From positions 1 through 28,140 of the forward strand of contig NZ_JAUFQT010000004.1 of NCBI RefSeq assembly GCF_030409905.1: a DNA stretch of 28,140 nucleotides, in the 5' to 3' direction. Under the pieces are notes generated by a model that had not been told where the DNA came from, ran no database searches, and saw only the letters and a list, made by a program, of their open reading frames with translations. Each line of letters opens with the position of its first letter. Position 1 is the first letter of the stretch. This stretch comes from Echinicola jeungdonensis (lineage in GTDB: Bacteria > Bacteroidota > Bacteroidia > Cytophagales > Cyclobacteriaceae). Shown here in pieces: positions 1-28,140 of this stretch. The position numbers and the translations under genes were made by a program.

Positions 1-953
1 CAGATTTGGTCACATGGCCAATAAAATGGACATCTGGATGCTTTTCTAATTTATCGAAATCCTCCTGCTTAATGGTAAAAAGCAGCTCATAATCTTCTCC
101 TCCATTCAATACACAGGTAATCGGATCCAGCCCAAATTCCACTGCAGAATCATATGTTTGTTTATCAATAGGCAATTTATCCTCATATATTCTTACTCCA
201 ACACCAGACTGCTTGCAAATATGAAAAAGTTCAGAGGCAAGTCCATCAGAAATATCAATCATACTGGTAGGAACTACATTTAAATCGCGAAGTTCATGGA
301 TGATATCCATTCTGGCATCTGGGCGAAGTTGCCTACCGGTAACATAGGCATATTTTCCAACTGGGGTTGCATTTTGGGATCGGCCATAAACACCTCTTTT
401 CCCTTTCCAAAACCTGAAGGCCCATCAAAGCCCCTCCCAGGTCACCTGTTGCACAAATGATATCCTTATCTTTGGCCCCAGACCTTAACACTTCTTTTCC
501 TTTTTCCACCTCTCCTAATACAGTAATAGAAATCACCAATCCTGCCCGGGAGGAAGTAGTGTCTCCACCAATGATGTCCACATTATAATGTTCGGCTGCA
601 GCATTTACTCCTGCATACAAAGCATCTACAGCCTCAACAGAAAACCGGTTGCTTAATCCCACGCTGACTGTAATTTGCTTAGGAATCGCATTCATTGCAG
701 CAATATCAGAAACATTGACAGCCACGGCTTTGAACCCCAAATGCTGTAATGGAGTGTAAGACATATCAAAATGAACTCCTTCCAGTAACAGGTCGGTAGA
801 AATCACCTGGACAAAATCCCCCTTGTCCAGTATTGCAGCGTCATCACCGACGCCTTTTATGGTACTTGGATGTCGAAGCTTTATATTTTCATTTAAATGA
901 TCAATTAGACCAAACTCTCCCAATTCACTTATTTCCGTTCGCTTTTCCTTCAT
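1..953 (-). pseudogene. thiL: Thiamine-monophosphate kinase ThiL, partial, frame-broken copy
   Basis: Left-arm copy of thiL. The start codon is at 951-953 (protein begins MKEKRTEISELGEFG) and the 3' end runs off the window. Two A-runs, read as T at 353-356 and 397-400, are each one base shorter than in the right arm. The frame is lost after residues LEREK. These are probably sequencing errors, so this should not be called a real pseudogene. An open frame continues upstream to 1124, but the conserved start is at 953; the longer version adds unrelated residues and is not supported. Confidence 0.9.
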
Positions 954-1105
954 GATATATTGTAATTTATTTTGAAGGCCTAACGCCTTAACCTTTCCTT
1001 CTTTTCTGGTAAATCCACCAATTTTATTTTTTGGAAGGTATTGCTCTCCTCCCAAATTTCCATTGGAGGGTAAATAACATTTATGTTTTTCCCTGTAAAT
1101 GAATT

Positions 1106-1506
1106 TTATTGAGTCGATTGACAAATCTCCACTAACACCCCATTGGTGCTTCGGGGATGCAAAAATACAACTAATTTATGATCAGCCCCGGTTTTGGTTG
1201 TTCATTTAACAATTCAAACCCCTCCTTTTTCAATCGCTCCATTTCTTTTTGAATATCCTCCACTTCAAATGCGATATGATGGATTCCTTCCGCCCTCTTT
1301 TCCACAAACTTGGAAATTGGGGAATCAGGTCCAGTTCCTTCCAATAATTCCACCTTGGTATCGCCAACCTGAAAAAAGGACGTTTTCACCCCTTCACTGT
1401 CTACCATTTCCTCTTTATAAGCCTTATTTCCCAACAGTTTGGCAAACAATTCATTGGATTGTTTCAAGTCTTTTACCGCAATTCCAAGATGTTCAATTTT
1501 TCTCAT
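1106..1506 (-). pseudogene. mce: Methylmalonyl-CoA epimerase, frame-broken copy
   Basis: Left-arm copy of the epimerase. An A-run (T at 1192-1195) has four bases instead of the five in the right arm, so the frame shifts after NEQPK and ends early at about 1171. The rest, down to the original stop at 1106-1108, is still present. The intact 133-residue version is at 26620-27021. Likely a read error. Confidence 0.9.
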
Positions 1507-1546
1507 CCTTTAAATTTGTATATTTGTATTAGGAATTATTTCCAAG

Positions 1547-1567
1547 GTAAGCATGTTTTATGCTTAC
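1547..1567. promoter_or_regulatory. Perfect 8-bp inverted repeat between mce and the Fe-S carrier
   Basis: GTAAGCAT, five bases, then ATGCTTAC, in the 94-base divergent intergenic region. On the mce strand its end overlaps TACCTTGG, one base off the Bacteroidota -7 consensus TAnnTTTG. On the carrier-gene strand, matches TAAATTTG (1511-1518) and TATATTTG (1519-1526) lie just upstream of the repeat. The position suits an operator controlling one or both divergent genes. The regulator is unknown, and a chance palindrome is possible. Confidence 0.4.
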
Positions 1568-1600
1568 TTAAAATCAATTTGCATTAAAAAGCACAACAAT

Positions 1601-1927
1601 ATGATCATCGTTTCAGATAAAGCTAAAGCACGTATTAATGAATTAAGAGAGCAGGAAAGCCGAAGCGAAGAGGAAAACATCCGGGTTTCGGTAAAAGGTG
1701 GAGGATGCTCAGGTCTGATGTATGACCTGGGTTTTGATGCCAACATTGCTGAAAATGATCAGGTTTTTGAAGACAAAGGCATTAAAATCATTGTGGACAA
1801 AAAAAGCCTCCTATACCTGGCTGGTACTACCTTGGAATTTACAGATGGATTAAATGGAAAAGGTTTCCAATTTGTCAACCCCAATGCTTCCAGAACCTGC
1901 GGATGCGGTGAAAGTTTCTCGATTTAA
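1601..1927 (+). CDS. A-type Fe-S cluster carrier (HesB/IscA/ErpA family)
   Basis: A 108-residue cytoplasmic protein that in this family carries and delivers iron-sulfur clusters to apo-enzymes. The three family cysteines are present: Cys36 in GGGCSGL and Cys100/Cys102 in the C-terminal CGCG motif. Length is typical. I chose the ATG at 1601 because MIIVSDKAKARI aligns with the family start; the upstream ATG at 1553 adds 16 residues and would begin inside the inverted repeat at 1547-1567. The gene is divergent from mce, and a strong hairpin terminator follows 22 bases after the stop. The sequence alone does not decide between IscA, ErpA and SufA roles. The copy at 26199-26525 is identical in frame. 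Confidence 0.93.
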   Translation: MIIVSDKAKARINELREQESRSEEENIRVSVKGGGCSGLMYDLGFDANIAENDQVFEDKGIKIIVDKKSLLYLAGTTLEFTDGLNGKGFQFVNPNASRTCGCGESFSI

Positions 1928-1949
1928 AAATTTCTTAATTATTTTTTCG

Positions 1950-1979
1950 AGCACGGCAGACCTAAGCCGTGCTTTTTTT
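1950..1979 (+). terminator. Intrinsic terminator after the Fe-S carrier gene
   Basis: Stem AGCACGGC / GCCGTGCT (8 bp) with an 8-base loop, followed by seven T. It also has an A/T-rich run before the stem. It separates the carrier gene from susC. Confidence 0.88.
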
Positions 1980-2147
1980 ATGCCTTCCTCCCGATATACT
2001 CCAAACTGCTATCAAAATATCAAAAATTTTTTTATTGCATTTTCTTCAAAATCAAGACATTATTTTTATTTTGATAAAAACTATTGGAATAATCTAATAA
2101 AAGACCATTAGTCCTTTTCAATTTTTAACACCCAACTCTAATAACCC

Positions 2148-5100
2148 ATGAAACAATGTTTAATAATGGCCATTGTTTTAATATTGTTTTCCAGTATTAG
2201 GACATTAGCTCAAAACAGATCAATCACCGGAACGGTTCTCTCCGCTGAGAATAATAGTGCCTTGCCCGGTGTGAATATCCGGATCAAAGGCACCACTAAG
2301 GGAACCTTTACCGATATTGATGGAAAATATCGCATTCAAGCCTCTGAGGATATGGTCCTGATATTTTCCTTTGTGGGTTTCCATCCCGTGGAAGTCCCTG
2401 TAGCCAACCAAAGCATTATTGATGTGGTTATGGAAACCGATGCCCGGATTTTAAGTGAAATTCTGGTGGTAGGTTATGGTAACATCAACAGGAGGGACCT
2501 AACAGGTTCTGTAGCACAAATTAGTGAACAGACCATTCAGGATATACCTGCCATTGGGATTGACCAAGCCATGCAAGGAAGGATGGCAGGAGTCCAGATT
2601 AATCAAAACTCTGGGATTCGGGTGCAGCAATTTCAGTTAGGGTCAGGGGCTCTTCCTCCATTTCTGCCAGCAACCGGCCTTTATTTGTCATTGATGGAAT
2701 CCCCATGCTTACGGGCAGTCCTTCCCAGTTTGATTATGGTGGTCAGTCCATAGACGCAATTACAGACCTTTCCCCTCAGACATTGCCTCCATTGAGGTTT
2801 AAAGGATGCCTCTGCATCTTCCATTTATGGATCACGGGCAGCCAATGGAGTGATTTTGATCACCACCAAAAGAGGGGCCGACCAGAAAACCCAATTTAAC
2901 CTTAATGTATATGGCGGATTCCAGGAATTATGGCGTAAACCTGAATTCCTGAATAGAGACCAATATTTGTTGCTATTCAAAGATGCTTTTGCTGAAGATT
3001 TCTTTGGGGAGCCTGCTGAAGAAATTTCCGACAATGAAATTCTTAACTTTTATTATGGGGGGCTTCCCTATCCTGAAAATACCGATACAGACTGGGTGGA
3101 CGAAGTTACCCGAAAAGGCCCCATTCAAAACTATGAATTAAGCGCCAGGGGTGGAAATGATAAAACCCAGTTTTACATTTCAGGAAATTATTTTGATCAA
3201 AAGGGGGTACTCATCAATAGTCGGTTCCAAAGGATTTCAAGCCGATTTAACCTAGACCACTATATTAATGACAAGTTTTCCATTTCCCTAAACTCCGGTA
3301 TTACCCGATCCACACAAAACCGAGTTTCCTCTGACAACACCCTATACAGCCCATTTTCCAATGCATTGGCTGCTTCCCCCCTATGGCCGGTTTATGAATC
3401 AGATGGTTCATACACCAGACCACAATTCTTCTATACCAACCCTGTAGCTGAAGGGACCGAAAATGATGATGAAAATCAATCCATAAGGGTATTTGCAAAC
3501 GTACTGGGTTCATATGAAATACTTGATGGACTAAGCATTAATGTCAGGGGCGGAGGGGACATGCTTTACTTCCATGAAAGGAGCTATATCCCGACAGTTA
3601 CCCAGGAAGTTTATCTACTCCCCAAGGAGGCTCAGGAACCTTTGCAACCTCTAATGTCAACAAATGGATGGTCGAAGGATTTCTGGATTACAAAAAGGTC
3701 CTCAACAACCTCCATATCCTTAATGTAGTTATAGGACATAACCGGGAAGAAAACCTCAGCTCTTCCTCCAGTGTCACCGGGATCCAGTTTCCGGGTGAGC
3801 GATTCCGCTATATTGGGGCTGCCGCCACCGTCAACCAGGGTTCAAATGGGGCTGGAGGCAGTGGCCTGGAATCCTATTTCGGTAGGACCAACTATTCTTA
3901 TGAAGACAAATATTTATTCAGCGCTTCATTCCGGGCTGATGCATCTTCCCGTTTTGGGCCCAATAACCAATGGGGATTTTTCCCATCGGTTTCCGGAGGC
4001 TGGAAGATCAACGAGGAGGAGTTTATGGATGACCAAGAGTTCATTTCTGATCTAAAAATCAGGGCAAGTGTGGGTAAGGCAGGCAACCAGTCCATTGGAG
4101 GCTTTGCCTGGAAAAACCTGGTTGGAGCAGGTAATTACCTGGAAACATCCACCATTGTTCCGGTACAGTTGGGCAACCCGGATCTAAAATGGGAAAGCAC
4201 CACGCAGACAGATGTGGGGATTGATGCCGGATTTCTGGATGGTAGAATCTATTTGATAGCCGATTATTATTACAAAAAAACAACTGACCTTTTGTTTGCC
4301 AGGCCCATTGCAACGCAAAATGGTTTTGGGGCTTATCAGTCCAATATTGGGAGCATAGAAAATAAAGGTTTTGAACTGACCATTTCTTCTATAAACATCA
4401 ATAATTCAGCAATAGACCTTCAATGGAGATCCAATTTTAATATCACTTTCAACAAAAATAAGGTTCTAGAACTTTACAACAATGAGGATATATTCTATGG
4501 TTTCAATGGGAACTCCCTTGTATTAAGAGAGGGCGAACCTATTGGTTCTTATTATGGATTAATTGCAGATGGGGTGTTTATGACCCAGTCTGATGTTCCG
4601 GAATCCCGTCGGATACAAGGTATCCAAGCAGGGGACATGAATTACAGGGATATCAACGGGGATGGCGTTATTACAGATGATGACTTTACAATCATTGGCA
4701 ATGCACAGCCCAAGTTTTATGGAGGATTAACCAATGAAGTGGAATTTAAAGGTTTTGACCTTCAACTTTTCCTGCAGTATTCTGTCGGAAATGATCAGTG
4801 GTTTGCCTCCGGGGCATTCCAGGAGGGAATGTTTGCTAACTTTTTTGATGATAATAACCGAACAACTGTCCTGGATCGTTGGCGATCGGAGGATGACCCA
4901 GGAAATGGGGAGATCCCTAGAGCAGCTTATGATGTTTCTGTCAACCGGAACAACCAACCCAATACCACCCGTTTTGTGGAAGATGGGTCCTATCTAAGAA
5001 TTAAAAACCTGGTCATCGGCTATAAATTGCCCAAAGATCTTTTGGACCGGTTAAAAATGAGAAAGATCAGGATTTTCGCACAGGCGCAGAATTTATTCAC

Positions 5101-5229
5101 CTTTACCGAATACACCGGTTTTGACCCTGAAATAAATTTTGCTGGTACTTCTAATGCAACACTGGCTACGGACTTTTACACTTTCCCCAGCCCAGAACTT
5201 ATACTTTCGGTATTAACGTAGGATTTTAA
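2148..5229 (+). pseudogene. susC: SusC/RagA-type TonB-dependent transporter, frame-broken copy
   Basis: Left-arm copy of susC. Compared with the right arm it lacks one base at each of five places: near 2619 (C), 2775 (T), 2798-2800 (T), 3590 (C) and 5182-5186 (C). The first three cancel out after about 180 bases, so a stretch with the wrong residues sits in the plug domain. The last loss destroys the normal end, which with five C reads FPQPRTYTFGINVGF and stops at 5227-5229. The left arm is correct where the right arm fails (residues about 27-30 and the EYTGFDPEINF segment). See 22893-25977 for function. Confidence 0.9.
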
Positions 5230-5234
5230 TAGAT

Positions 5235-6605
5235 ATGGACAAGGCAATTAAGATCAACCAAATAATATATGCGGCTTGTTTCCTGTTTTTTGGAGCACCG
5301 CCTGTGATACTTTGGACCAGGAACCGGTAAACACTATCGAAACCGAAGGAGCCATCACCTCTTTTAGTGATGCCCAGCTCGTCCTCAAAGGCATGTATGA
5401 TGAGCTTCAAAGCGGTAATTATTATGGCCTAAGGTACCTGTATTATCAGGATGTATATGCAGACAACCTTTTACATTCTGGTACATTCACCACGGACCAG
5501 GAAATCAGTTCCCGTAGGATTAACCCATCCAACTTGCAAATTTCAGTACTTGGGCAACTTTATACAAAATTATCGGGACTGCCAAATTCATGTTAGAAGT
5601 TTTACCTGACATTCAGAATTTAAGTTCAAGTCAGGCTGCTGCTATTGAGGGAGAAGCAAGGTTTGTAAGAGCATTAGTTTATTTTGACCTGCTAAAAATC
5701 TTTGGAGGCGTACCCATTGTTACAGATTTTGTTACCACCACCTCCGAAGTTTCACTTGCGGGGAGGGCTTCCGAAACCGAGGTTTATAATTTTATCATTG
5801 AGGATTTGGAATTTGCTGAAAACAATTTGGGTAATACGCCCAATGCGCCATTCCGAGCCAATAATTGGGCAGCCACTGCACTTTTGGCAAGGGTGCATTT
5901 GCAGGTTGGCAATTACGCTCTTGCCATTCAAAAAGCCACAGAGGTGATCAATGCGGGCTATATCTTGCTACCCAATTATGGGGATATTTCCAGAATCAAG
6001 GGCAATAATGAAATGATTTTCGAACTGAATTTCACCAACAATGTTGGGGATCAAAATGGTTTAGCCATTTCATCAGACCCTTCCACAAGTGGACAAAAAT
6101 TTTATGTCCGCCCCGCCTTTTACAATGCTTTTGTTGCTTCTGCCAACCAAGGGGATGAAAGATTTTCCACCTCTGTTTTGGAGCAAGGCAATAATTTAAG
6201 AGTAATCAAATATTTTAGGGTAAGTACAAGTGACGACAATGTTCCTATTTTAAGGTTAGCAGAAATGTACTTGATCCGTGCCGAGGCAAATGCCCGTCGA
6301 ATCGGATCTGGCTTTACCACTGGAGCCATTATTGATGATATTAATATCATCCGGCAAAGGGCCGATTTAGACCCATTATTATTAACAGATATTCCTACAA
6401 TTGCCGGAGCATTGGAGGAAATATTGGAACAAAGAAGGTTTGAGTTGCCTTTGAGGGGCACCGCTACTCAGACCTCAGAAGATACGGCCTGGCCGATGAC
6501 TTGTTTCCTCCTGGTGAAAGTTTCCGGGAACTCTGGCCCATTCCATTGCAGGAGCTGGAACTCAACGAAAATCTTGTCCAAAACAATGGGTATTCCAGTG
6601 AATAA
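5235..6605 (+). pseudogene. susD: SusD/RagB-like lipoprotein, frame-broken copy
   Basis: Left-arm copy of susD, starting five bases after the susC stop. It lacks one base at three places relative to the right arm: the G-run near 5292 just before the lipobox, the C pair near 5544, and the T-run near 5 bases after 6440. It also has the only substitution I found between arms, A at 5586 where the mirror strand gives C, changing Asn to Lys. The intact 457-residue reading frame is at 21514-22887. Confidence 0.9.
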
Positions 6606-6612
6606 AACCCGT

Positions 6613-6651
6613 AAAAAGGCCTCATTTTAATTGAAAATGAGGCCTTTTTTT
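6613..6651 (+). terminator. Terminator after susCD
   Basis: Stem AAAAAGGCCTCATTTT against AAAATGAGGCCTTTTT with a 5-base loop and a run of seven T, starting 8 bases after the susD stop. The A-run on the other side makes it usable in both directions. It marks the end of the susC-susD transcript. Confidence 0.9.
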
Positions 6652-6866
6652 ATCCAATTCCTTAAGGTATTTTTCCCTAAACATCAACTATCCTTTGACT
6701 TTCAGAGCCTTAGAGGCCTTTCATTTTATTCCCCACTTATTTTTTTCAAATTGCCAAGAAGATCAGATGAAAGAAAAATCATTTGCATTGAAACCCTGCT
6801 GCTTCCTGGTGTTAAATAAACCAACCGCATTTGGGAACAAGATTCGTAATGTTATCCCTCATTTAT

Positions 6867-6874
6867 TACCTTTG
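6867..6874 (+). promoter_or_regulatory. Candidate -7 element of gcvT
   Basis: TACCTTTG matches the Bacteroidota -7 consensus TAnnTTTG and is identical to the element before bioF. It lies 26 bases before the gcvT ATG, which would give a leader of about 20 bases. A good -33 TTTG at the right distance is missing (only TTCG), so support is moderate. The rest of 6652-6900 shows no gene; short open frames there lack family features. Confidence 0.45.
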
Positions 6875-6900
6875 CCGAAACAGTAACCAAATCTTTTTTC

Positions 6901-7994
6901 ATGGAAAATACTATCAAGAAAGTTGCATTAAATGACACCCATGAGGAATTGGGGGCAAAAATGGTCCCATTTGCCGGATATAACATGCCTGTCCGTTACT
7001 CTTCCGACAGGGAAGAACACAATACTGTCCGAAAGGACTTGGGGATATTTGATGTATCCCATATGGGAGAATTTTTAGTCAAGGGTCCTCAAGCCCTTAT
7101 TTTGATCCAAAAGATAACTTCCAATGATGCATCAAAGTTGGCAATCGGCCAAGCACAATATTCCTGTTTACCTAATGAAACCGGAGGCATCGTTGATGAT
7201 TTGTTGGTCTATAAAATCCATGAAGAAAAATACCTGCTGGTTGTTAATGCTTCCAACATTGAAAAAGATTGGAATTGGATCCAACAGCATAACCAAGTAG
7301 GGGCTGAATTGGAGGATATTTCTGACCAAACTTCCCTCTTTGCCGTCCAAGGTCCCAAAGCCACTAAGGCCCTGCAAACTCTAACTCCAGTAAATCTGGA
7401 TGAAATTAAATTTTACCATTTTGAAATAGGTGAATTTGCCGGAGTACCTGATGTCATCATTTCGGCAACTGGTTATACAGGTGCGGGTGGATTTGAGATT
7501 TATGTTCCCAATGATCATGCGCAAAAAGTATGGGATGCCATATTGATGCAGGGAAAGATTTGGGGATTAAGCCCATCGGTTTGGGGGCAAGGGACACACT
7601 TCGCTTGGAAATGGGGTATTGCCTATATGGAAATGATATTGACGAAACAACCTCACCAATTGAAGCAGGATTGGGCTGGATCACCAAATTCAACAAAAAA
7701 TTCATCAACCGGGACCAATTAGCCAAACAAAAAGAAGAAGGTGTTTCGCGAAAGCTGGTAGGTTTTGTTTTGCAGGAAAAAGGAATCCCCAGAGCACACT
7801 ATCCCATTGTTAACCTACATGGAGAACAAATCGGTGAAGTTACTTCCGGAACCCTCTCCCCCAGCATGGGAATAGGCATAGGTTTAGGGTATGTGGATTC
7901 CAAATACGCAAAGCCTGGCACATCCATTGCAATAACTGTCCGGAAAAAAAACCTGGAAGCCAAAGTGAAAAAGTTACCTTTATTGGATATTTAA
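6901..7994 (+). pseudogene. gcvT: Aminomethyltransferase GcvT (glycine cleavage T-protein), frame-broken copy
   Basis: Left-arm copy, 1094 bases, one short of a 364-residue frame. The N-terminal two thirds read cleanly, including the FAVQGPKATKALQ segment that is broken in the right arm. A T is missing at 7543-7544 (CATATTGATG instead of CATATTTGATG), so the frame shifts after VWDAI. The C-terminal part, [22 protein letters not shown] to the end, continues in another frame to 7994. Joining this N-terminus to the right-arm C-terminus gives the full protein. T-protein transfers the aminomethyl carbon from lipoyl H-protein to tetrahydrofolate; [10 protein letters not shown] (residues 95-104) holds the conserved acidic folate-site residues. 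Confidence 0.93.
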
Positions 7995-8083
7995 AACCAA
8001 CTTTTAATAAGCATTACATTACAATTAACCCGGTTAGCCCAGGCGGATTATTAAATCCTAATGGTTGGTCGAATAACAATAAA

Positions 8084-8812
8084 ATGAAAAAAATAGAAAT
8101 TTGCTTAAGTCCTGAACTGATTCACCTTCATGATTTAAAAGGGAAAATTGTAGTCGTGGTGGATATTTTCAGGGCTACTTCAACCATGGTTACAGGCCTT
8201 GCCAATGCAGTTCAATCCATTACTCCCGTAGCTGGCCTTGAAACTTGTCGGGCCATGAAAAAGGAAGGGTACATCATTGCCGGAGAAAGAAATGGCCAGA
8301 CCGCCGAAGGATTTGAGCTGGGCAACTCTCCCTTGAGTTACCTGAAAAAAGCTTATGAAGGGAAAAAAATAGCAGTGACAACCACCAATGGCACCTTAGC
8401 CATTGAATTATCCAAAAAAGATGCAGATGAAGTAATTCTTGGTGCCTTTTTGAATTTGCAAGCCACTGCTGATTATTTAGTTCAAAAAAATAAGGATGTG
8501 GTCATCCACTGTGCTGGCTGGAAGGGCATGTTTAACTTGGAAGATTCCTTGTACGCAGGTGCCCTGGTAAAAAGGCTTGCTGGGCATTTTACTTTTGATT
8601 GTGATGGAGCCATAGCCATGAAATCCCTTTTTGAGCAGCACCAAAACAACCTTCAAGGCTTTTTAAACCAGGCTTCTCATGCCAAGAGATTGCAAAATCA
8701 CAATATCGAAGCGGATATTGACTTTTGCCTGACTATGGATAAATATGATTTGGTGGGAAAACTTCAGGGAGAAGCCTTGATCAAGGTAAATCCTCAAAAG
8801 GAAACTACTTAG
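8084..8812 (+). CDS. comB: ComB-like 2-phosphosulfolactate phosphatase family protein
   Basis: A 242-residue cytoplasmic protein of the ComB family (COG2045). In methanogens ComB is a Mg-dependent phosphatase that makes sulfolactate for coenzyme M; the role in Bacteroidota is not settled. Family blocks are all visible: VVVVDIFRATSTM with Asp27/Arg30, AGERNG near residue 66, GNSP near 80, TTTNGT near 99, GWKGMFNLEDSLYAG near 144-158, and a C-terminal block EADIDFCLTMDKYDLV. Length is normal. It lies 89 bases after gcvT on the same strand; the gap contains no clear terminator, so co-transcription is possible. The mirror copy (19307-20035) translates identically. The family call is firm; the exact substrate is not. 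Confidence 0.88.
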   Translation: MKKIEICLSPELIHLHDLKGKIVVVVDIFRATSTMVTGLANAVQSITPVAGLETCRAMKKEGYIIAGERNGQTAEGFELGNSPLSYLKKAYEGKKIAVTTTNGTLAIELSKKDADEVILGAFLNLQATADYLVQKNKDVVIHCAGWKGMFNLEDSLYAGALVKRLAGHFTFDCDGAIAMKSLFEQHQNNLQGFLNQASHAKRLQNHNIEADIDFCLTMDKYDLVGKLQGEALIKVNPQKETT

Positions 8813-8881
8813 ATTTGATTAGGCAAATTACTTAAGTTAGGGACTTTTTATACCAAGTTTCAGATGGATCCTACATGGAAT

Positions 8882-8904
8882 ACCCCCTTGATAAGTATGG
8901 GGGT
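8882..8904 (+). terminator. Weak hairpin after comB
   Basis: ACCCCC / GGGGGT stem of 6 bp with an 11-base loop, 69 bases after the comB stop. Only three T follow, so this is a weak terminator candidate at best. Confidence 0.35.
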
Positions 8905-9006
8905 TTATGAACAATGATCACGGAACTTTTACCTCAATTTTTTTTAAGGTTAATTTGGAACACCTAGCGAGAGGTAATTTGCTAAAAACCAAAGAGGAGG
9001 TAATTC

Positions 9007-9040
9007 AAATGATAAATACCGAAATCGGAATTTATCATTT
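9007..9040. repeat. 34-base near-perfect palindrome
   Basis: AAATGATAAAT pairs with ATTTATCATTT (11 bp), and inside it CCG pairs with CGG; only one A-A mismatch on the stem and an AAAT loop. A pyrimidine tract with six T begins within a few bases, so it could be the real terminator of the comB transcript, or an operator. The sequence does not decide. Confidence 0.55.
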
Positions 9041-9101
9041 CCCTTTTTTAATTGCCTTAGTTCTTTCCTCCCGGCACTTTGGTCTTTATTAGCGGAGCTT
9101 A

Positions 9102-9129
9102 GGAACTGGGAAGTTCCCTGCTGGGAACT
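9102..9129 (+). promoter_or_regulatory. Overlapping mutually exclusive hairpins upstream of bioF
   Basis: GGAACT (9102-9107) pairs with AGTTCC (9112-9117) around a 4-base loop. The same middle strand AGTTCCC (9112-9118) can instead pair with GGGAACT (9123-9129) around TGCT. As RNA this gives two alternative hairpins; as DNA it gives two overlapping operator-like dyads. It lies 72-99 bases before the bioF ATG, upstream of the candidate promoter, so an operator fits better than an attenuator unless transcripts read through from comB. Confidence 0.4.
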
Positions 9130-9163
9130 CCACACCAAAAAAGCTTAGCAGATTCAAAGCCCC

Positions 9164-9194
9164 TTTGCAATCCCACTGATCTGGTTTACCTTTG
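9164..9194 (+). promoter_or_regulatory. Candidate Bacteroidota promoter of bioF
   Basis: TTTG (9164-9167), 19 bases, then TACCTTTG (9187-9194), matching the -33 TTTG / -7 TAnnTTTG promoter of this phylum with near-ideal spacing. The -7 box ends six bases before the ATG at 9201, so the predicted transcript would have almost no leader. Confidence 0.55.
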
Positions 9195-9200
9195 TGGTTC

Positions 9201-10325: not shown

Positions 10326-10326
10326 A

Positions 10327-10926: not shown

Positions 10927-11038
10927 AATTCCATCCCAGGAAAAGTAATTCGGCAAGGTTTCTTTAAATCATAAAACCTTTCCCCGGGAATTGATATAAT
11001 AATTCAGGAATTGATTAAAAAAAGCTTAGGGAAATTCA

Positions 11039-12184: not shown

Positions 12185-12219
12185 ATATTATATGGGGATT
12201 GCACTCCTTATTATTCTTA

Positions 12220-12242
12220 GGTCCTGATTGTAAATCAGGACC
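12220..12242. terminator. Hairpin between convergent KAS-like and MazG-like genes
   Basis: GGTCCTGATT / AATCAGGACC, a perfect 10-bp stem with a 3-base loop, 35 bases after the KAS-like stop and 56 bases after the convergent mazG-like stop. No T-run on either side, so it may be a bidirectional Rho-assisted or mRNA 3'-end-protecting structure. Confidence 0.55.
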
Positions 12243-15876: not shown

Positions 15877-15899
15877 GGTCCTGATTTACAATCAGGACC
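15877..15899. terminator. Convergent-gene hairpin (mirror copy)
   Basis: Mirror of 12220-12242: GGTCCTGATT, 3-base loop, AATCAGGACC, between the mazG-like and KAS-like stops, with no T-tract. Confidence 0.55.
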
Positions 15900-15934
15900 T
15901 AAGAATAATAAGGAGTGCAATCCCCATATAATAT

Positions 15935-17082: not shown

Positions 17083-17193
17083 TGAATTTCCCTAAGCTTT
17101 TTTAATCAATTCCTGAATTATTATATCAATTCCCGGGGAAAGGTTTTATGATTTAAAGAAACCTTGCCGAATTACTTTTCCTGGGATGGAATT

Positions 17194-17793: not shown

Positions 17794-17794
17794 T

Positions 17795-18918: not shown

Positions 18919-18924
18919 GAACCA

Positions 18925-18955
18925 CAAAGGTAAACCAGATCAGTGGGATTGCAAA
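18925..18955 (-). promoter_or_regulatory. Candidate bioF promoter (mirror copy)
   Basis: Mirror of 9164-9194: TTTG at 18952-18955 and TACCTTTG at 18925-18932 on the minus strand, six bases before the bioF start codon. Confidence 0.55.
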
Positions 18956-18989
18956 GGGGCTTTGAATCTGCTAAGCTTTTTTGGTGTGG

Positions 18990-19017
18990 AGTTCCCAGCA
19001 GGGAACTTCCCAGTTCC
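18990..19017 (-). promoter_or_regulatory. Alternative hairpins upstream of bioF (mirror copy)
   Basis: Mirror of 9102-9129, with no base difference. The identical sequence in both arms means the triple repeat is not a read error. Confidence 0.4.
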
Positions 19018-19078
19018 TAAGCTCCGCTAATAAAGACCAAAGTGCCGGGAGGAAAGAACTAAGGCAATTAAAAAAGGG

Positions 19079-19112
19079 AAATGATAAATTCCGATTTCGG
19101 TATTTATCATTT
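19079..19112. repeat. 34-base near-perfect palindrome (mirror copy)
   Basis: Mirror of 9007-9040 with identical sequence. Confidence 0.55.
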
Positions 19113-19214
19113 GAATTACCTCCTCTTTGGTTTTTAGCAAATTACCTCTCGCTAGGTGTTCCAAATTAACCTTAAAAAAAATTGAGGTAAAAGTTCCGTG
19201 ATCATTGTTCATAA

Positions 19215-19237
19215 ACCCCCATACTTATCAAGGGGGT
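19215..19237 (-). terminator. Weak hairpin after comB (mirror copy)
   Basis: Mirror of 8882-8904: ACCCCC/GGGGGT with an 11-base loop and only three T on the comB strand. Confidence 0.35.
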
Positions 19238-19306
19238 ATTCCATGTAGGATCCATCTGAAACTTGGTATAAAAAGTCCCTAACTTAAGTAATTTGCCTAA
19301 TCAAAT

Positions 19307-20035
19307 CTAAGTAGTTTCCTTTTGAGGATTTACCTTGATCAAGGCTTCTCCCTGAAGTTTTCCCACCAAATCATATTTATCCATAGTCAGGCAAAAGTCA
19401 ATATCCGCTTCGATATTGTGATTTTGCAATCTCTTGGCATGAGAAGCCTGGTTTAAAAAGCCTTGAAGGTTGTTTTGGTGCTGCTCAAAAAGGGATTTCA
19501 TGGCTATGGCTCCATCACAATCAAAAGTAAAATGCCCAGCAAGCCTTTTTACCAGGGCACCTGCGTACAAGGAATCTTCCAAGTTAAACATGCCCTTCCA
19601 GCCAGCACAGTGGATGACCACATCCTTATTTTTTTGAACTAAATAATCAGCAGTGGCTTGCAAATTCAAAAAGGCACCAAGAATTACTTCATCTGCATCT
19701 TTTTTGGATAATTCAATGGCTAAGGTGCCATTGGTGGTTGTCACTGCTATTTTTTTCCCTTCATAAGCTTTTTTCAGGTAACTCAAGGGAGAGTTGCCCA
19801 GCTCAAATCCTTCGGCGGTCTGGCCATTTCTTTCTCCGGCAATGATGTACCCTTCCTTTTTCATGGCCCGACAAGTTTCAAGGCCAGCTACGGGAGTAAT
19901 GGATTGAACTGCATTGGCAAGGCCTGTAACCATGGTTGAAGTAGCCCTGAAAATATCCACCACGACTACAATTTTCCCTTTTAAATCATGAAGGTGAATC
20001 AGTTCAGGACTTAAGCAAATTTCTATTTTTTTCAT
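19307..20035 (-). CDS. comB: ComB-like phosphatase family protein (mirror copy)
   Basis: Right-arm copy of 8084-8812, same 242 residues with no frame difference. Its agreement with the left copy makes this one of the most reliable sequences in the window. Confidence 0.88.
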   Translation of the reverse strand: MKKIEICLSPELIHLHDLKGKIVVVVDIFRATSTMVTGLANAVQSITPVAGLETCRAMKKEGYIIAGERNGQTAEGFELGNSPLSYLKKAYEGKKIAVTTTNGTLAIELSKKDADEVILGAFLNLQATADYLVQKNKDVVIHCAGWKGMFNLEDSLYAGALVKRLAGHFTFDCDGAIAMKSLFEQHQNNLQGFLNQASHAKRLQNHNIEADIDFCLTMDKYDLVGKLQGEALIKVNPQKETT

Positions 20036-20124
20036 TTTATTGTTATTCGACCAACCATTAGGATTTAATAATCCGCCTGGGCTAACCGGGTTAATTGTAA
20101 TGTAATGCTTATTAAAAGTTGGTT

Positions 20125-21218
20125 TTAAATATCCAATAAAGGTAACTTTTTCACTTTGGCTTCCAGGTTTTTTTTCCGGACAGTTATTGCAATGGATGTG
20201 CCAGGCTTTGCGTATTTGGAATCCACATACCCTAAACCTATGCCTATTCCCATGCTGGGGGAGAGGGTTCCGGAAGTAACTTCACCGATTTGTTCTCCAT
20301 GTAGGTTAACAATGGGATAGTGTGCTCTGGGGATTCCTTTTTCCTGCAAAACAAAACCTACCAGCTTTCGCGAAACACCTTCTTCTTTTTGTTTGGCTAA
20401 TTGGTCCCGGTTGATGAATTTTTTGTTGAATTTGGTGATCCAGCCCAATCCTGCTTCAATTGGTGAGGTTGTTTCGTCAATATCATTTCCATATAGGCAA
20501 TACCCCATTTCCAAGCGAAGTGTGTCCCTTGCCCCCAAACCGATGGGCTTAATCCCCAAATCTTTCCCTGCATCAAATATGGCATCCCATACTTTTTGCG
20601 CATGATCATTGGGAACATAAATCTCAAATCCACCCGCACCTGTATAACCAGTTGCCGAAATGATGACATCAGGTACTCCGGCAAATTCACCTATTTCAAA
20701 ATGGTAAAATTTAATTTCATCCAGATTTACTGGAGTTAGAGTTTGCAGGGCCTTAGTGGCTTTGGACCTTGGACGGCAAAGAGGGAAGTTTGGTCAGAAA
20801 TATCCTCCAATTCAGCCCCTACTTGGTTATGCTGTTGGATCCAATTCCAATCTTTTTCAATGTTGGAAGCATTAACAACCAGCAGGTATTTTTCTTCATG
20901 GATTTTATAGACCAACAAATCATCAACGATGCCTCCGGTTTCATTAGGTAAACAGGAATATTGTGCTTGGCCGATTGCCAACTTTGATGCATCATTGGAA
21001 GTTATCTTTTGGATCAAAATAAGGGCTTGAGGACCCTTGACTAAAAATTCTCCCATATGGGATACATCAAATATCCCCAAGTCCTTTCGGACAGTATTGT
21101 GTTCTTCCCTGTCGGAAGAGTAACGGACAGGCATGTTATATCCGGCAAATGGGACCATTTTTGCCCCCAATTCCTCATGGGTGTCATTTAATGCAACTTT
21201 CTTGATAGTATTTTCCAT
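20125..21218 (-). pseudogene. gcvT: GcvT, frame-broken mirror copy
   Basis: Right-arm copy of 6901-7994. One base is missing near 20764-20765 (GGTCCAAAG for GGTCCCAAAG on the gene strand), so the frame shifts after FAVQGPK. The downstream part is intact where the left arm fails: [28 protein letters not shown] continues to LPLLDI. The consensus of both arms is 364 residues, typical of T-protein. The rest of the glycine cleavage system (gcvH, gcvP) is not in the window. Confidence 0.93.
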
Positions 21219-21244
21219 GAAAAAAGATTTGGTTACTGTTTCGG

Positions 21245-21252
21245 CAAAGGTA
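21245..21252 (-). promoter_or_regulatory. Candidate gcvT -7 element (mirror copy)
   Basis: TACCTTTG on the minus strand; mirror of 6867-6874. Confidence 0.45.
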
Positions 21253-21467
21253 ATAAATGAGGGATAACATTACGAATCTTGTTCCCAAATGCGGTTGGTT
21301 TATTTAACACCAGGAAGCAGCAGGGTTTCAATGCAAATGATTTTTCTTTCATCTGATCTTCTTGGCAATTTGAAAAAAATAAGTGGGGAATAAAATGAAA
21401 GGCCTCTAAGGCTCTGAAAGTCAAAGGATAGTTGATGTTTAGGGAAAAATACCTTAAGGAATTGGAT

Positions 21468-21506
21468 AAAAAAAGGCCTCATTTTCAATTAAAATGAGGC
21501 CTTTTT
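21468..21506 (-). terminator. Terminator after susCD (mirror copy)
   Basis: Mirror of 6613-6651: GGCCTCATTTT hairpin with a seven-base T-run on the minus strand. Confidence 0.9.
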
Positions 21507-21513
21507 ACGGGTT

Positions 21514-22887
21514 TTATTCACTGGAATACCCATTGTTTTGGACAAGATTTTCGTTGAGTTCCAGCTCCTGCAATGGAATGGGCCAGAGTTCCCGGAAACT
21601 TTCACCAGGAGGAAACAAGTCATCGGCCAGGCCGTATCTTCTGAGGTCTGAGTAGCGGTGCCCCTCAAAGGCAAACTCAAACCTTCTTTGTTCCAATATT
21701 TCCTCCAATGCTCCGGCAATTGTAGGAATATCTGTTAATAATAATGGGTCTAAATCGGCCCTTTGCCGGATGATATTAATATCATCAATAATGGCTCCAG
21801 TGGTAAAGCCAGATCCGATTCGACGGGCATTTGCCTCGGCACGGATCAAGTACATTTCTGCTAACCTTAAAATAGGAACATTGTCGTCACTTGTACTTAC
21901 CCTAAAATATTTGATTACTCTTAAATTATTGCCTTGCTCCAAAACAGAGGTGGAAAATCTTTCATCCCCTTGGTTGGCAGAAGCAACAAAAGCATTGTAA
22001 AAGGCGGGGCGGACATAAAATTTTTGTCCACTTGTGGAAGGGTCTGATGAAATGGCTAAACCATTTTGATCCCCAACATTGTTGGTGAAATTCAGTTCGA
22101 AAATCATTTCATTATTGCCCTTGATTCTGGAAATATCCCCATAATTGGGTAGCAAGATATAGCCCGCATTGATCACCTCTGTGGCTTTTTGAATGGCAAG
22201 AGCGTAATTGCCAACCTGCAAATGCACCCTTGCCAAAAGTGCAGTGGCTGCCCAATTATTGGCTCGGAATGGCGCATTGGGCGTATTACCCAAATTGTTT
22301 TCAGCAAATTCCAAATCCTCAATGATAAAATTATAAACCTCGGTTTCGGAAGCCCTCCCCGCAAGTGAAACTTCGGAGGTGGTGGTAACAAAATCTGTAA
22401 CAATGGGTACGCCTCCAAAGATTTTTAGCAGGTCAAAATAAACTAATGCTCTTACAAACCTTGCTTCTCCCTCAATAGCAGCAGCCTGACTTGAACTTAA
22501 ATTCTGAATGTCAGGTAAAACTTCTAACATGAAGTTGGCAGTCCCGATAATTTTGTATAAAGTTGCCCAAGTACTGGAAATTTGCAAGTTGGATGGGTTA
22601 ATCCTACGGGAACTGATTTCCTGGTCCGTGGTGAATGTACCAGAATGTAAAAGGTTGTCTGCATATACATCCTGATAATACAGGTACCTTAGGCCATAAT
22701 AATTACCGCTTTGAAGCTCATCATACATGCCTTTGAGGACGAGCTGGGCATCACTAAAAGAGGTGATGGCTCCTTCGGTTTCGATAGTGTTTACCGGTTC
22801 CTGGTCCAAAGTATCACAGGCGGTGCTCCCAAAAAACAGGAAACAAGCCGCATATATTATTTGGTTGATCTTAATTGCCTTGTCCAT
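21514..22887 (-). CDS. susD: SusD/RagB-like nutrient-binding outer-membrane lipoprotein
   Basis: Best copy, 457 residues in one frame. SusD-like proteins sit as a lid on their SusC partner at the cell surface and capture glycans or peptides. A type II signal runs from the N-terminus to lipobox STAC with lipidated Cys24, followed by DTLDQEP, the usual SusD start. Further marks are EGEARFVRALVYFDLLKIFGG near 137, the TPR-like WAATALLARVHLQVGNY region, LRLAEMYLIRAEANAR near 350, and the C-terminal RRFEFAFEGHRYSDLRRYG and ELELNENLVQNNGY. The start is five bases after the susC stop, so the pair is one transcription unit. No sulfatase, glycoside hydrolase, SusE or ECF sigma/anti-sigma gene is adjacent, so the substrate cannot be predicted. 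Confidence 0.95.
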   Translation of the reverse strand: MDKAIKINQIIYAACFLFFGSTACDTLDQEPVNTIETEGAITSFSDAQLVLKGMYDELQSGNYYGLRYLYYQDVYADNLLHSGTFTTDQEISSRRINPSNLQISSTWATLYKIIGTANFMLEVLPDIQNLSSSQAAAIEGEARFVRALVYFDLLKIFGGVPIVTDFVTTTSEVSLAGRASETEVYNFIIEDLEFAENNLGNTPNAPFRANNWAATALLARVHLQVGNYALAIQKATEVINAGYILLPNYGDISRIKGNNEMIFELNFTNNVGDQNGLAISSDPSTSGQKFYVRPAFYNAFVASANQGDERFSTSVLEQGNNLRVIKYFRVSTSDDNVPILRLAEMYLIRAEANARRIGSGFTTGAIIDDINIIRQRADLDPLLLTDIPTIAGALEEILEQRRFEFAFEGHRYSDLRRYGLADDLFPPGESFRELWPIPLQELELNENLVQNNGYSSE

Positions 22888-22892
22888 ATCTA

Positions 22893-25800
22893 TTAAAATC
22901 CTACGTTAATACCGAAAGTATAAGTTCTGGGCTGGGGGAAAGTGTAAAAGTCCGTAGCCAGTGTTGCATTAGAAGTACCAGCAAAATTTATTTCAGGGTC
23001 AAAACGGTGTATTCGGTAAAGGTGAATAAATTCTGCGCCTGTGCGAAAATCCTGATCTTTCTCATTTTTAACCGGTCCAAAAGATCTTTGGGCAATTTAT
23101 AGCCGATGACCAGGTTTTTAATTCTTAGATAGGACCCATCTTCCACAAAACGGGTGGTATTGGGTTGGTTGTTCCGGTTGACAGAAACATCATAAGCTGC
23201 TCTAGGGATCTCCCCATTTCCTGGGTCATCCTCCGATCGCCAACGATCCAGGACAGTTGTTCGGTTATTATCATCAAAAAAGTTAGCAAACATTCCCTCC
23301 TGGAATGCCCCGGAGGCAAACCACTGATCATTTCCGACAGAATACTGCAGGAAAAGTTGAAGGTCAAAACCTTTAAATTCCACTTCATTGGTTAATCCTC
23401 CATAAAACTTGGGCTGTGCATTGCCAATGATTGTAAAGTCATCATCTGTAATAACGCCATCCCCGTTGATATCCCTGTAATTCATGTCCCCTGCTTGGAT
23501 ACCTTGTATCCGACGGGATTCCGGAACATCAGACTGGGTCATAAACACCCCATCTGCAATTAATCCATAATAAGAACCAATAGGTTCGCCCTCTCTTAAT
23601 ACAAGGGAGTTCCCATTGAAACCATAGAATATATCCTCATTGTTGTAAAGTTCTAGAACCTTATTTTTGTTGAAAGTGATATTAAAATTGGATCTCCATT
23701 GAAGGTCTATTGCTGAATTATTGATGTTTATAGAAGAAATGGTCAGTTCAAAACCTTTATTTTCTATGCTCCCAATATTGGACTGATAAGCCCCAAAACC
23801 ATTTTGCGTTGCAATGGGCCTGGCAAACAAAAGGTCAGTTGTTTTTTTGTAATAATAATCGGCTATCAAATAGATTCTACCATCCAGAAATCCGGCATCA
23901 ATCCCCACATCTGTCTGCGTGGTGCTTTCCCATTTTAGATCCGGGTTGCCCAACTGTACCGGAACAATGGTGGATGTTTCCAGGTAATTACCTGCTCCAA
24001 CCAGGTTTTTCCAGGCAAAGCCTCCAATGGACTGGTTGCCTGCCTTACCCACACTTGCCCTGATTTTTAGATCAGAAATGAACTCTTGGTCATCCATAAA
24101 CTCCTCCTCGTTGATCTTCCAGCCTCCGGAAACCGATGGGAAAAATCCCCATTGGTTATTGGGCCCAAAACGGGAAGATGCATCAGCCCGGAATGAAGCG
24201 CTGAATAAATATTTGTCTTCATAAGAATAGTTGGTCCTACCGAAATAGGATTCCAGGCCACTGCCTCCAGCCCCATTTGAACCCTGGTTGACGGTGGCGG
24301 CAGCCCCAATATAGCGGAATCGCTCACCCGGAAACTGGATCCCGGTGACACTGGAGGAAGAGCTGAGGTTTTCTTCCCGGTTATGTCCTATAACTACATT
24401 AAGGATATGGAGGTTGTTGAGGACCTTTTTGTAATCCAGAAATCCTTCGACCATCCATTTGTTGACATTAGAGGTTGCAAAGGTTCCTGAGCCTCCTTGG
24501 GGAGTAGATAAACTTCCTGGGTAACTGTCGGGGATATAGCTCCTTTCATGGAAGTAAAGCATGTCCCCTCCGCCCCTGACATTAATGCTTAGTCCATCAA
24601 GTATTTCATATGAACCCAGTACGTTTGCAAATACCCTTATGGATTGATTTTCATCATCATTTTCGGTCCCTTCAGCTACAGGGTTGGTATAGAAGAATTG
24701 TGGTCTGGTGTATGAACCATCTGATTCATAAACCGGCCATAGGGGGGAAGCAGCCAATGCATTGGAAAATGGGCTGTATAGGGTGTTGTCAGAGGAAACT
24801 CGGTTTTGTGTGGATCGGGTAATACCGGAGTTTAGGGAAATGGAAAACTTGTCATTAATATAGTGGTCTAGGTTAAATCGGCTTGAAATCCTTTGGAACC
24901 GACTATTGATGAGTACCCCCTTTTGATCAAAATAATTTCCTGAAATGTAAAACTGGGTTTTATCATTTCCACCCCTGGCGCTTAATTCATAGTTTTGAAT
25001 GGGGCCTTTTCGGGTAACTTCGTCCACCCAGTCTGTATCGGTATTTTCAGGATAGGGAAGCCCCCCATAATAAAAGTTAAGAATTTCATTGTCGGAAATT
25101 TCTTCAGCAGGCTCCCCAAAGAAATCTTCAGCAAAAGCATCTTTGAATAGCAACAAATATTGGTCTCTATTCAGGAATTCAGGTTTACGCCATAATTCCT
25201 GGAATCCGCCATATACATTAAGGTTAAATTGGGTTTTCTGGTCGGCCCCTCTTTTGGTGGTGATCAAAATCACTCCATTGGCTGCCCGTGATCCATAAAT
25301 GGAAGATGCAGAGGCATCCTTTAAAACCTCAATGGAGGCAATGTCTGAAGGGGAAAGGTCTGTAATTGCGTCTATGGACTGACCACCATAATCAAACTGG
25401 GAAGGACTGCCCGTAAGCATGGGGATTCCATCAATGACAAATAAAGGCCGGTTGCTGGCAGAAATGGAGGAAGAGCCCCTGACCCTAACTGAAATTGCTG
25501 CACCCGGAATCCCAGAGTTTTGATTAATCTGGACTCCTGCCATCCTTCCTTGCATGGCTTGGTCAATCCCAATGGCAGGTATATCCTGAATGGTCTGTTC
25601 ACTAATTTGTGCTACAGAACCTGTTAGGTCCCTCCTGTTGATGTTACCATAACCTACCACCAGAATTTCACTTAAAATCCGGGCATCGGTTTCCATAACC
25701 ACATCAATAATGCTTTGGTTGGCTACAGGGACTTCCACGGGATGGAAACCCACAAAGGAAAATATCAGGACCATATCCTCAGAGGCTTGAATGCGATATT

Positions 25801-25977
25801 TTCCATCAATATCGGTAAAGGTTCCCTTAGTGGTGCCTTTGATCCGGATATTCACACCGGGCAAGGCACTATTATTCTCAGCGGAGAGAACCGTTCGGTG
25901 ATTGATCTGTTTTGAGCTAATGTCCTAATACTGGAAAACAATATTAAAACAATGGCCATTATTAAACATTGTTTCAT
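22893..25977 (-). pseudogene. susC: SusC/RagA-type TonB-dependent transporter (consensus 1028 aa), two frameshifts
   Basis: Outer-membrane beta-barrel that imports the ligand delivered by SusD, powered by TonB. With both arms merged it is 1028 residues. Order: signal peptide (1-22, ending TLAQ), a CarboxypepD_reg-like domain (about 25-100), a TonB-box-like EILVVGYG (104-111), plug domain (about 115-225, with VRVRGSSSISASNRPLFVIDGIPM), the barrel, an EF-hand-like DINGDGVITDDD late in the barrel, and the terminal TYTFGINVGF ending in Phe. This copy lacks one base near 25896 (after RSIT) and one near 23005 (in EYTGFDPE); 958 residues between are open. Start codon 25975-25977, stop 22893-22895. 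Confidence 0.93.
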
Positions 25978-26145
25978 GGGTTATTAGAGTTGGGTGTTAA
26001 AAATTGAAAAGGACTAATGGTCTTTTATTAGATTATTCCAATAGTTTTATCAAAATAAAAAATAATGTCTTGATTTTGAAGAAAATGCAATAAAAAAATT
26101 TTTGATATTTTGATAGCAGTTTGGAGTATATCGGGAGGAAGGCAT

Positions 26146-26175
26146 AAAAAAAGCACGGCTTAGGTCTGCCGTGCT
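26146..26175 (-). terminator. Terminator after the Fe-S carrier gene (mirror copy)
   Basis: Mirror of 1950-1979: 8-bp AGCACGGC stem, 8-base loop, seven T on the minus strand. The A/T run before the stem is one base longer here than in the left arm. Confidence 0.88.
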
Positions 26176-26198
26176 CGAAAAAAATAATTAAGAAATTT

Positions 26199-26525
26199 TT
26201 AAATCGAGAAACTTTCACCGCATCCGCAGGTTCTGGAAGCATTGGGGTTGACAAATTGGAAACCTTTTCCATTTAATCCATCTGTAAATTCCAAGGTAGT
26301 ACCAGCCAGGTATAGGAGGCTTTTTTTGTCCACAATGATTTTAATGCCTTTGTCTTCAAAAACCTGATCATTTTCAGCAATGTTGGCATCAAAACCCAGG
26401 TCATACATCAGACCTGAGCATCCTCCACCTTTTACCGAAACCCGGATGTTTTCCTCTTCGCTTCGGCTTTCCTGCTCTCTTAATTCATTAATACGTGCTT
26501 TAGCTTTATCTGAAACGATGATCAT
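26199..26525 (-). CDS. A-type Fe-S cluster carrier (mirror copy)
   Basis: Right-arm copy of 1601-1927 with the same 108 residues and Cys36/100/102. The start at 26523-26525 is preferred over the upstream ATG at 26573. Confidence 0.93.
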   Translation of the reverse strand: MIIVSDKAKARINELREQESRSEEENIRVSVKGGGCSGLMYDLGFDANIAENDQVFEDKGIKIIVDKKSLLYLAGTTLEFTDGLNGKGFQFVNPNASRTCGCGESFSI

Positions 26526-26558
26526 ATTGTTGTGCTTTTTAATGCAAATTGATTTTAA

Positions 26559-26579
26559 GTAAGCATAAAACATGCTTAC
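26559..26579. promoter_or_regulatory. Inverted repeat between mce and the Fe-S carrier (mirror copy)
   Basis: Mirror of 1547-1567, with identical 8-bp arms. It lies 40 bases before the mce ATG on this strand, where TACCTTGG immediately follows. Confidence 0.4.
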
Positions 26580-26619
26580 CTTGGAAATAATTCCTAATAC
26601 AAATATACAAATTTAAAGG

Positions 26620-27021
26620 ATGAGAAAAATTGAACATCTTGGAATTGCGGTAAAAGACTTGAAACAATCCAATGAATTGTTTGCCAAACTGTTGGGAAAT
26701 AAGGCTTATAAAGAGGAAATGGTAGACAGTGAAGGGGTGAAAACGTCCTTTTTTCAGGTTGGCGATACCAAGGTGGAATTATTGGAAGGAACTGGACCTG
26801 ATTCCCCAATTTCCAAGTTTGTGGAAAAGAGGGCGGAAGGAATCCATCATATCGCATTTGAAGTGGAGGATATTCAAAAAGAAATGGAGCGATTGAAAAA
26901 GGAGGGGTTTGAATTGTTAAATGAACAACCAAAAACCGGGGCTGATCATAAATTAGTTGTATTTTTGCATCCCCGAAGCACCAATGGGGTGTTAGTGGAG
27001 ATTTGTCAATCGACTCAATAA
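26620..27021 (+). CDS. mce: Methylmalonyl-CoA epimerase
   Basis: Intact copy, 133 residues, VOC/glyoxalase fold. It interconverts (2S)- and (2R)-methylmalonyl-CoA in the propionyl-CoA to succinyl-CoA route. Two beta-alpha-beta-beta-beta modules are visible: MRKIEHLGIAV with metal ligand His6, the mid segment GDTKVELLEGTGPDSPISKF, the second module GIHHIAFEVEDI with His76/77, and the end HPRSTNGVLVEICQ with Glu127. Length and the STNGVLVE ending are typical of the Bacteroidota enzyme. Divergent from the Fe-S carrier gene; thiL follows on the same strand after 153 bases. Methylmalonyl-CoA mutase genes are not in the window. Confidence 0.93.
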   Translation: MRKIEHLGIAVKDLKQSNELFAKLLGNKAYKEEMVDSEGVKTSFFQVGDTKVELLEGTGPDSPISKFVEKRAEGIHHIAFEVEDIQKEMERLKKEGFELLNEQPKTGADHKLVVFLHPRSTNGVLVEICQSTQ

Positions 27022-27174
27022 AATTCATTTACAGGGAAAAACATAAATGTTATTTACCCTCCAATGGAAATTTGGGAGGAGAGCAATACCTTCCAAAAAA
27101 TAAAAATTGGTGGATTTACCAGAAAAGAAGGAAAGGTTAAGGCGTTAGGCCTTCAAAATAAATTACAATATATC

Positions 27175-28140
27175 ATGAAGGAAAAGCGAACGGAAATAAG
27201 TGAATTGGGAGAGTTTGGTCTAATTGATCATTTAAATGAAAATATAAAGCTTCGACATCCAAGTACCATAAAAGGCGTCGGTGATGACGCTGCAATACTG
27301 GACAAGGGGGATTTTGTCCAGGTGATTTCTACCGACCTGTTACTGGAAGGAGTTCATTTTGATATGTCTTACACTCCATTACAGCATTTGGGGTTCAAAG
27401 CCGTGGCTGTCAATGTTTCTGATATTGCTGCAATGAATGCGATTCCTAAGCAAATTACAGTCAGCGTGGGATTAAGCAACCGGTTTTCTGTTGAGGCTGT
27501 AGATGCTTTGTATGCAGGAGTAAATGCTGCAGCCGAACATTATAATGTGGACATCATTGGTGGAGACACTACTTCCTCCCGGGCAGGATTGGTGATTTCT
27601 ATTACTGTATTAGGAGAGGTGGAAAAAGGAAAAGAAGTGTTAAGGTCTGGGGCCAAAGATAAGGATATCATTTGTGCAACAGGTGACCTGGGAGGGGCTT
27701 TGATGGGCCTTCAGGTTTTGGAAAGGGAAAAAGAGGTGTTTATGGCCGATCCCAAAATGCAACCCCAGTTGGAAAAATATGCCTATGTTACCGGTAGGCA
27801 ACTTCGCCCAGATGCCAGAATGGATATCATCCATGAACTTCGCGATTTAAATGTAGTTCCTACCAGTATGATTGATATTTCTGATGGACTTGCCTCTGAA
27901 CTTTTTCATATTTGCAAGCAGTCTGGTGTTGGAGTAAGAATATATGAGGATAAATTGCCTATTGATAAACAAACATATGATTCTGCAGTGGAATTTGGGC
28001 TGGATCCGATTACCTGTGTATTGAATGGAGGAGAAGATTATGAGCTGCTTTTTACCATTAAGCAGGAGGATTTCGATAAATTAGAAAAGCATCCAGATGT
28101 CCATTTTATTGGCCATGTGACCAAATCTGAAGAAGGAAAA
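27175..28140 (+). CDS. thiL: Thiamine-monophosphate kinase ThiL, 3' partial
   Basis: Best copy, 322 codons open to the window end; the family is about 330-350 residues, so only a short tail is missing. ThiL phosphorylates thiamine monophosphate to thiamine diphosphate with ATP. PurM/AIR-synthase-like motifs appear in order: GVGDDAAIL (35-43), STDLLLEGVHF (52-62), GFKAVAVNVSDIAAM (73-87), IIGGDTTSS (127-135), IDISDGLASEL (233-243) and NGGEDYELLF (284-293). The ATG at 27175 gives the conserved MKEKRTEISELGEFGLI start; no strong ribosome site precedes it. It probably shares a transcript with mce. Confidence 0.95.
   Translation, partial: MKEKRTEISELGEFGLIDHLNENIKLRHPSTIKGVGDDAAILDKGDFVQVISTDLLLEGVHFDMSYTPLQHLGFKAVAVNVSDIAAMNAIPKQITVSVGLSNRFSVEAVDALYAGVNAAAEHYNVDIIGGDTTSSRAGLVISITVLGEVEKGKEVLRSGAKDKDIICATGDLGGALMGLQVLEREKEVFMADPKMQPQLEKYAYVTGRQLRPDARMDIIHELRDLNVVPTSMIDISDGLASELFHICKQSGVGVRIYEDKLPIDKQTYDSAVEFGLDPITCVLNGGEDYELLFTIKQEDFDKLEKHPDVHFIGHVTKSEEGK

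Follow-up and report, generated by a model that had tools for sequence, protein, structure and literature searches.

Does Echinicola jeungdonensis carry a near-perfect palindrome with arms of 14 kb, or is the palindrome a product of the way in which its DNA was read? The question is raised by the window analyzed here, a stretch of 28,140 bases that constitutes an entire contig of the assembly GCF_030409905.1 (C4, NZ_JAUFQT010000004.1) and is not part of a longer one; the contigs are denoted C1–C13 below. An earlier reading based on the letters alone (hereafter, the sequence-only reading) had described a near-perfect palindrome with a 3-base spacer, in which the content of 1–14053 recurs reversed at 14057–28129, and had inferred an artefact. 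The palindrome is confirmed by self-alignment: when positions 1–28129 are matched with their reverse complement, the identity is 99.69%, and the alignment has 2 mismatch columns and 79 gap openings (the differences are counted double, as the window is aligned to itself and each of them enters twice), the arm at 1–14053 is repeated as a reverse complement at 14057–28129 on the minus strand, and the trinucleotide TAG is left between the arms at 14054–14056. Chance cannot explain 14-kb arms of such identity. The palindrome, nevertheless, does not represent a genuine feature of the organism, and C4 is almost certainly a fold-back artefact of a read, by whichever route it arose; the inferred artefact is supported by an unfolded copy in another contig, by the absence of any difference common to both arms, and by the recurrence of the fold at seven different loci.

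The unfolded original and the errors of the two arms

The same locus is found unfolded in the 3.2-Mb contig C1, at 597653–611748, and C1 extends beyond it on both sides. In a search of window positions 1–3000 and 11000–17000 against the whole genome, C1 provided the only long match besides C4 itself; the part of the window between 3000 and 11000 was aligned to C1, and the full arm aligns there. C4 maps to C1:597664–611748 (+) and then to 611744–597653 (−), that is, out and back with hardly any spacer. No turn is seen in C1 at 611748, where a whole gene of 504 amino acids (aa) is followed by further genes.

The second pass extends 11 bases beyond the point where the first begins. These bases, 28130–28140, have no partner inside the window and are genuine neighboring sequence, as shown by the terminal 22-mer of the window, which has exactly two occurrences in the genome, C1:597653–597674 and the end of C4. 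Different flanking sequence on the two sides, which the sequence-only reading had named as a sign of a real duplication, is absent: there are no unique flanks, and C4 stops on both sides at the same place of C1 (597664 and 597653).

Compared with C1, the left arm lacks 29 bases, gains 1, and shows 1 substitution up to position 14057, where its BLAST match ends; the right arm, taken over 14057–28140, lacks 10 bases, gains 2, and shows no substitution. Deletions account for 39 of the 42 indel bases, and 37 of the 42 adjoin an identical base. A three-way alignment of the left arm, the right arm, and C1, from which the 11-base tail and the columns running outwards from the axis had been excluded beforehand, contains 36 columns in which only the left arm deviates (6 of them stemming from a single shifted alignment around a repeat), 12 in which only the right arm does, and none common to both. 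In the two arms, one sequence has been read twice, each time with its own errors.

Fold-backs and chimaeras across the assembly

The assembly comprises 13 contigs with 4,534,283 bases in total. Two of them are large (C1, 3,227,711 bases, and C2, 1,098,264 bases); the other eleven are 15–35 kb each and sum to 208,308 bases. Eight of these eleven are fold-backs (C4, C5, C6, C7, C8, C9, C12, and C13), and the remaining three (C3, C10, and C11) are chimaeras; their places in the large contigs are given in Table 1. The assignments come from searches of C3, C5, the first 20,000 bases of C6, C7, C9, C10, and the two C4 stretches against their own genome, with C8, C11, C12, and C13 seen among the matches; in addition, alignments to stretches of C1 were made for C8, C12, C13, and the remainder of C6.

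The ends of C1 are folded as well. Positions 1–36063 form a fold-back with the axis near 18,030; C2:1081606–1098264 matches C1 outward from this axis, and C2 runs inward past the axis with other sequence. Because C2 reads straight through the start axis, C1 begins with about 18 kb of spurious sequence. At the other end, C1:3189641–3227711 (38 kb) is a fold-back with the axis near 3,208,690; here C2:11153–30844 matches C1:3189001–3208690, and C2 then continues straight past the axis. Both ends of C1 are false hairpins. After they are trimmed, C1 and C2 could be joined at both ends, probably yielding a single circular chromosome, whose size is estimated from the coordinates at about 4.24 Mb. The folded loci are seven in total, five from the small contigs (the window included) and the two ends of C1.

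Several repeats were observed in the folded and chimaeric stretches. Inside the initial fold-back of C1, at C1:27570–29711, there is an array in which about 28 units follow one another with a period of 76 bases and a stretch of 43 bases recurs well conserved, a layout resembling that of clustered regularly interspaced short palindromic repeats (CRISPR-like). The outer ends of C9 carry a 1.7-kb repeat (L036:14-1713), which is listed, at 99% identity, at six places of C1/C2 beyond its own locus and is probably an insertion sequence; C10 contains other repeat families, about 2.4 kb and 1.36 kb in length.

Table 1. Coordinates of the window features, and places in the large contigs from which the other folded and chimaeric small contigs derive (window positions where given).
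Feature	Position in window	Strand	Corresponding place	Remark
Left arm	1..14053	+	C1:597664-611744	Copy of this C1 stretch
Axis spacer TAG	14054..14056	.	C1:611745-611747	The next three C1 bases
Right arm	14057..28129	-	C1:597664-611744	Same C1 stretch copied again, on the other strand
Unpaired 11-base tail	28130..28140	-	C1:597653-597663	
Broken ABC-ATPase gene pieces	12688..13718	-	C1:610392-611906	Whole there (504 aa)
Second, mirrored set of broken ABC-ATPase pieces	14072..15406	+	C1:610392-611906	Same gene
Broken TonB-dependent receptor (SusC-type) pieces	2148..5221	+	C1, L009:9816-12902	Whole there (1028 aa)
Mirror image of the SusC-type receptor pieces	22988-25864			Likewise incomplete
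C5 fold-back			C1:476283-485786	
C6 fold-back			about C1:1080907-1094326	Three passes (out, back, out), two axes
C7 and C8 fold-backs			C1:833891-842636	One common axis; outer ends agree within 1 base
C9, C12, and C13 fold-backs			C1:47665-55310	One common axis; outer ends within about 80 bases
C3 chimaera			C1:878562-879695 and C2:988614-1003255	Joined
C10 chimaera and its near-copy C11			C1:840738-842310 and C1:2025916-2039760	Joined; same chimaera in both

Possible routes to the fold

The most likely origin is a hairpin-adapter library of the PacBio type (SMRTbell), which we regard as probable. Sequencing of a single library molecule spanning C1:597653–611747 would have proceeded on one strand as far as about 611747, where the molecule ends, then passed round a closed end and returned on the complementary strand to its starting point; at one end the adapter may have gone unrecognized and uncut, or that end of the insert may have been closed by a fold-back. 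Such a two-pass read would then have been error-corrected and, unplaceable in the chromosome contig, retained as a small contig of its own. The fold, its unfolded counterpart in C1, the independent errors of the arms, and the recurrence of the fold in the assembly are observed, whereas the platform, the error correction, and what precisely closed the end are inferred. Hairpin-adapter subreads are favored because of the replicate contigs, the three-pass zigzag, and the deletion-rich homopolymer errors; in particular, replicate contigs with a common axis and common ends would be subreads of one molecule, unlike independent genomic fragments.

This agrees with published descriptions. Unremoved SMRTbell adapters yield subreads with the insert forward and then reverse, correction strips the adapters, and false hairpins and small spurious contigs are possible consequences (PMC4134206); missed SMRTbell adapters have also been noted to produce reads structured like amplification palindromes (PMC6218980). 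The present assembly shares with the former the order of the insert copies, the lack of an adapter after correction, the small contigs, and the hairpins at contig ends, and differs in nothing of substance, the closed end here being due to either an adapter or a fold-back. Fold-back artefact reads, described in PMC12870357, are likewise composed of one half per strand of one place, with a near-central axis and almost no spacer, the difference being that those of that study were found in Oxford Nanopore data.

Several points speak against a hairpin-adapter origin. Four fragments of the adapter sequence have no exact match in any of the 11 small contigs; the absence of a remnant fits removal during correction and equally a fold-back formed without an adapter, and hence does not discriminate. 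The platform and the coverage are inferred and not taken from raw reads. In PMC12870357, systemic fold-backs were not evident in three PacBio samples, two of which had virtually none and the third 0.03%; PacBio data are therefore not always affected by the artefact. Finally, in PMC4134206 the adapter was present in only 0.29% of the subreads, and the small contigs of that study were judged to be real prophage inversions, an artefact being considered highly unlikely; that study thus supports the mechanism without being an instance of it.

The main rival, which would also make the window an artefact, is whole-genome amplification, in which a displaced 3′ end is re-primed on its own product and copied back by a phi29-type polymerase. 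We consider it unlikely. Precedent exists in the literature: palindromic reads made up 40–50% in amplified Arabidopsis libraries vs. 0.5% in an unamplified control (PMC6218980), 85% of chimaeras from multiple displacement amplification (MDA) were inverted, with junction complementarity of up to 21 bp (PMC1855051), and amplification palindromes (Pacasus, PMC6218980; PMC1855051) resemble the fold-backs seen here in being inverted duplications of one stretch, sometimes several times over. The assembly also holds chimaeras of distant loci (C3, C10, and C11), and the axis common to C9, C12, and C13 has a 5-base junction overlap, a length attained in about 1% of 6000 random folds that were simulated. 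The overlap at the window axis, however, is 1 base, which is reached by 38% of the simulated folds and hence is at the chance level; the exact overlaps at the other axes are 0 (C5), −4 and −5 (C6), −5 (C7), and 2 (C8), local errors disturbing the measure. As for self-priming at short inverted repeats in C1, the best perfect stem within 12 bases measures 3–6 at 5 axes, and stems as good as these occur at 14% or more of random positions. Both measures refer to axes of the small contigs; by junction overlap only the C9 group is unusual, and the result for the window is negative. Moreover, the MDA chimaeras described in PMC1855051 mostly have an intervening deletion and junction complementarity, whereas the window has a spacer of only 3 bases, and the replicate contigs with a common axis and common outer ends point to one library molecule read repeatedly. 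Nanopore reading of the template and then the complement of a single molecule, again an artefact, is less probable still, as near-identical copies (C7/C8 and C9/C12/C13, and the chimaera C10/C11) and the zigzag of C6 are expected from a circular hairpin-adapter template that is reread, not from one passage through a pore. The sequence-only reading had named two routes, a read running onto the complementary strand and an amplification chimaera; a hairpin-adapter library, in line with the former, is favored over whole-genome amplification, though not decisively.

A molecule really present in the cell, whether an inverted duplication in the chromosome, a circular inverted dimer, or a linear molecule with hairpin ends, appears very improbable. 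Genuine fold-back inversions exist in biology, and the sequence by itself is compatible with a closed 28-kb molecule; against this stand the unfolded copy in C1, arm differences that are all private to one arm and of the sequencing-error type, the recurrence of the fold at seven separate loci of one assembly, and the halt of both outer ends at the same mid-gene place. A real duplication is thus rejected due to the unfolded original, the errors private to each arm, and the recurrence at separate loci, and a separate linear or circular replicon is rejected as the arms consist of chromosomal sequence over their full length and C4 terminates on both sides in the middle of one gene. Fold-backs formed in cells (e.g., hairpin-capped broken ends left unprocessed) and then sequenced faithfully would imply an unusually high rate of folding in vivo; this, too, is hardly to be expected.

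Related genomes, in which the sequence-only reading had proposed to look for the same locus, also argue against a real molecule. A 2.1-kb query around the axis has a match in 13 of the 39 genomes searched (its own genome included), and in all 10 other genomes of the same genus both halves of the query match one and the same place. No inverted self-match of at least 200 bases is found in any of 24 loci from other genomes (15, four of them distant, from Bacilli and Shewanella, plus 9 of about 4 kb) or in the unfolded C1 stretches L009, L010, and L059-L062.

Genes broken in C4 and consequences for the assembly

As noted in the sequence-only reading, the axis lies in mid-gene: in C1 it falls within the 504-aa gene, which contains two ABC-ATPase stretches and is whole at C1:610392–611906. 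Four named matches of the ABC protein exceed 70% identity, all of them from Echinicola. The outer ends (C1 position 597664 on the left and 597653 on the right) are inside a 379-aa AIR-synthase-related gene, C1:597590–598729. With the axis and both outer ends in mid-gene, the fold and the ends ignore gene boundaries. Genes broken in C4 and whole in C1 are those for the 1028-aa SusC-type receptor, the 364-aa GcvT, and the 504-aa ABC protein. In a Pfam scan, all 12 proteins scanned match families concerned with metabolism or transport or families of the SusC/SusD or MazG type; no replication or telomere-resolution family is matched by any of the 12, no search having been aimed at such genes.

The palindrome has no biological significance. 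It matters for the public assembly, in which the eleven small contigs, with 208,308 of 4,534,283 bases, duplicate sequence of the two large ones in folded or chimaeric form: gene counts, duplication analyses, and palindrome searches in this genome will be misled, and the reported contamination value of 2.46% may partly reflect these copies.
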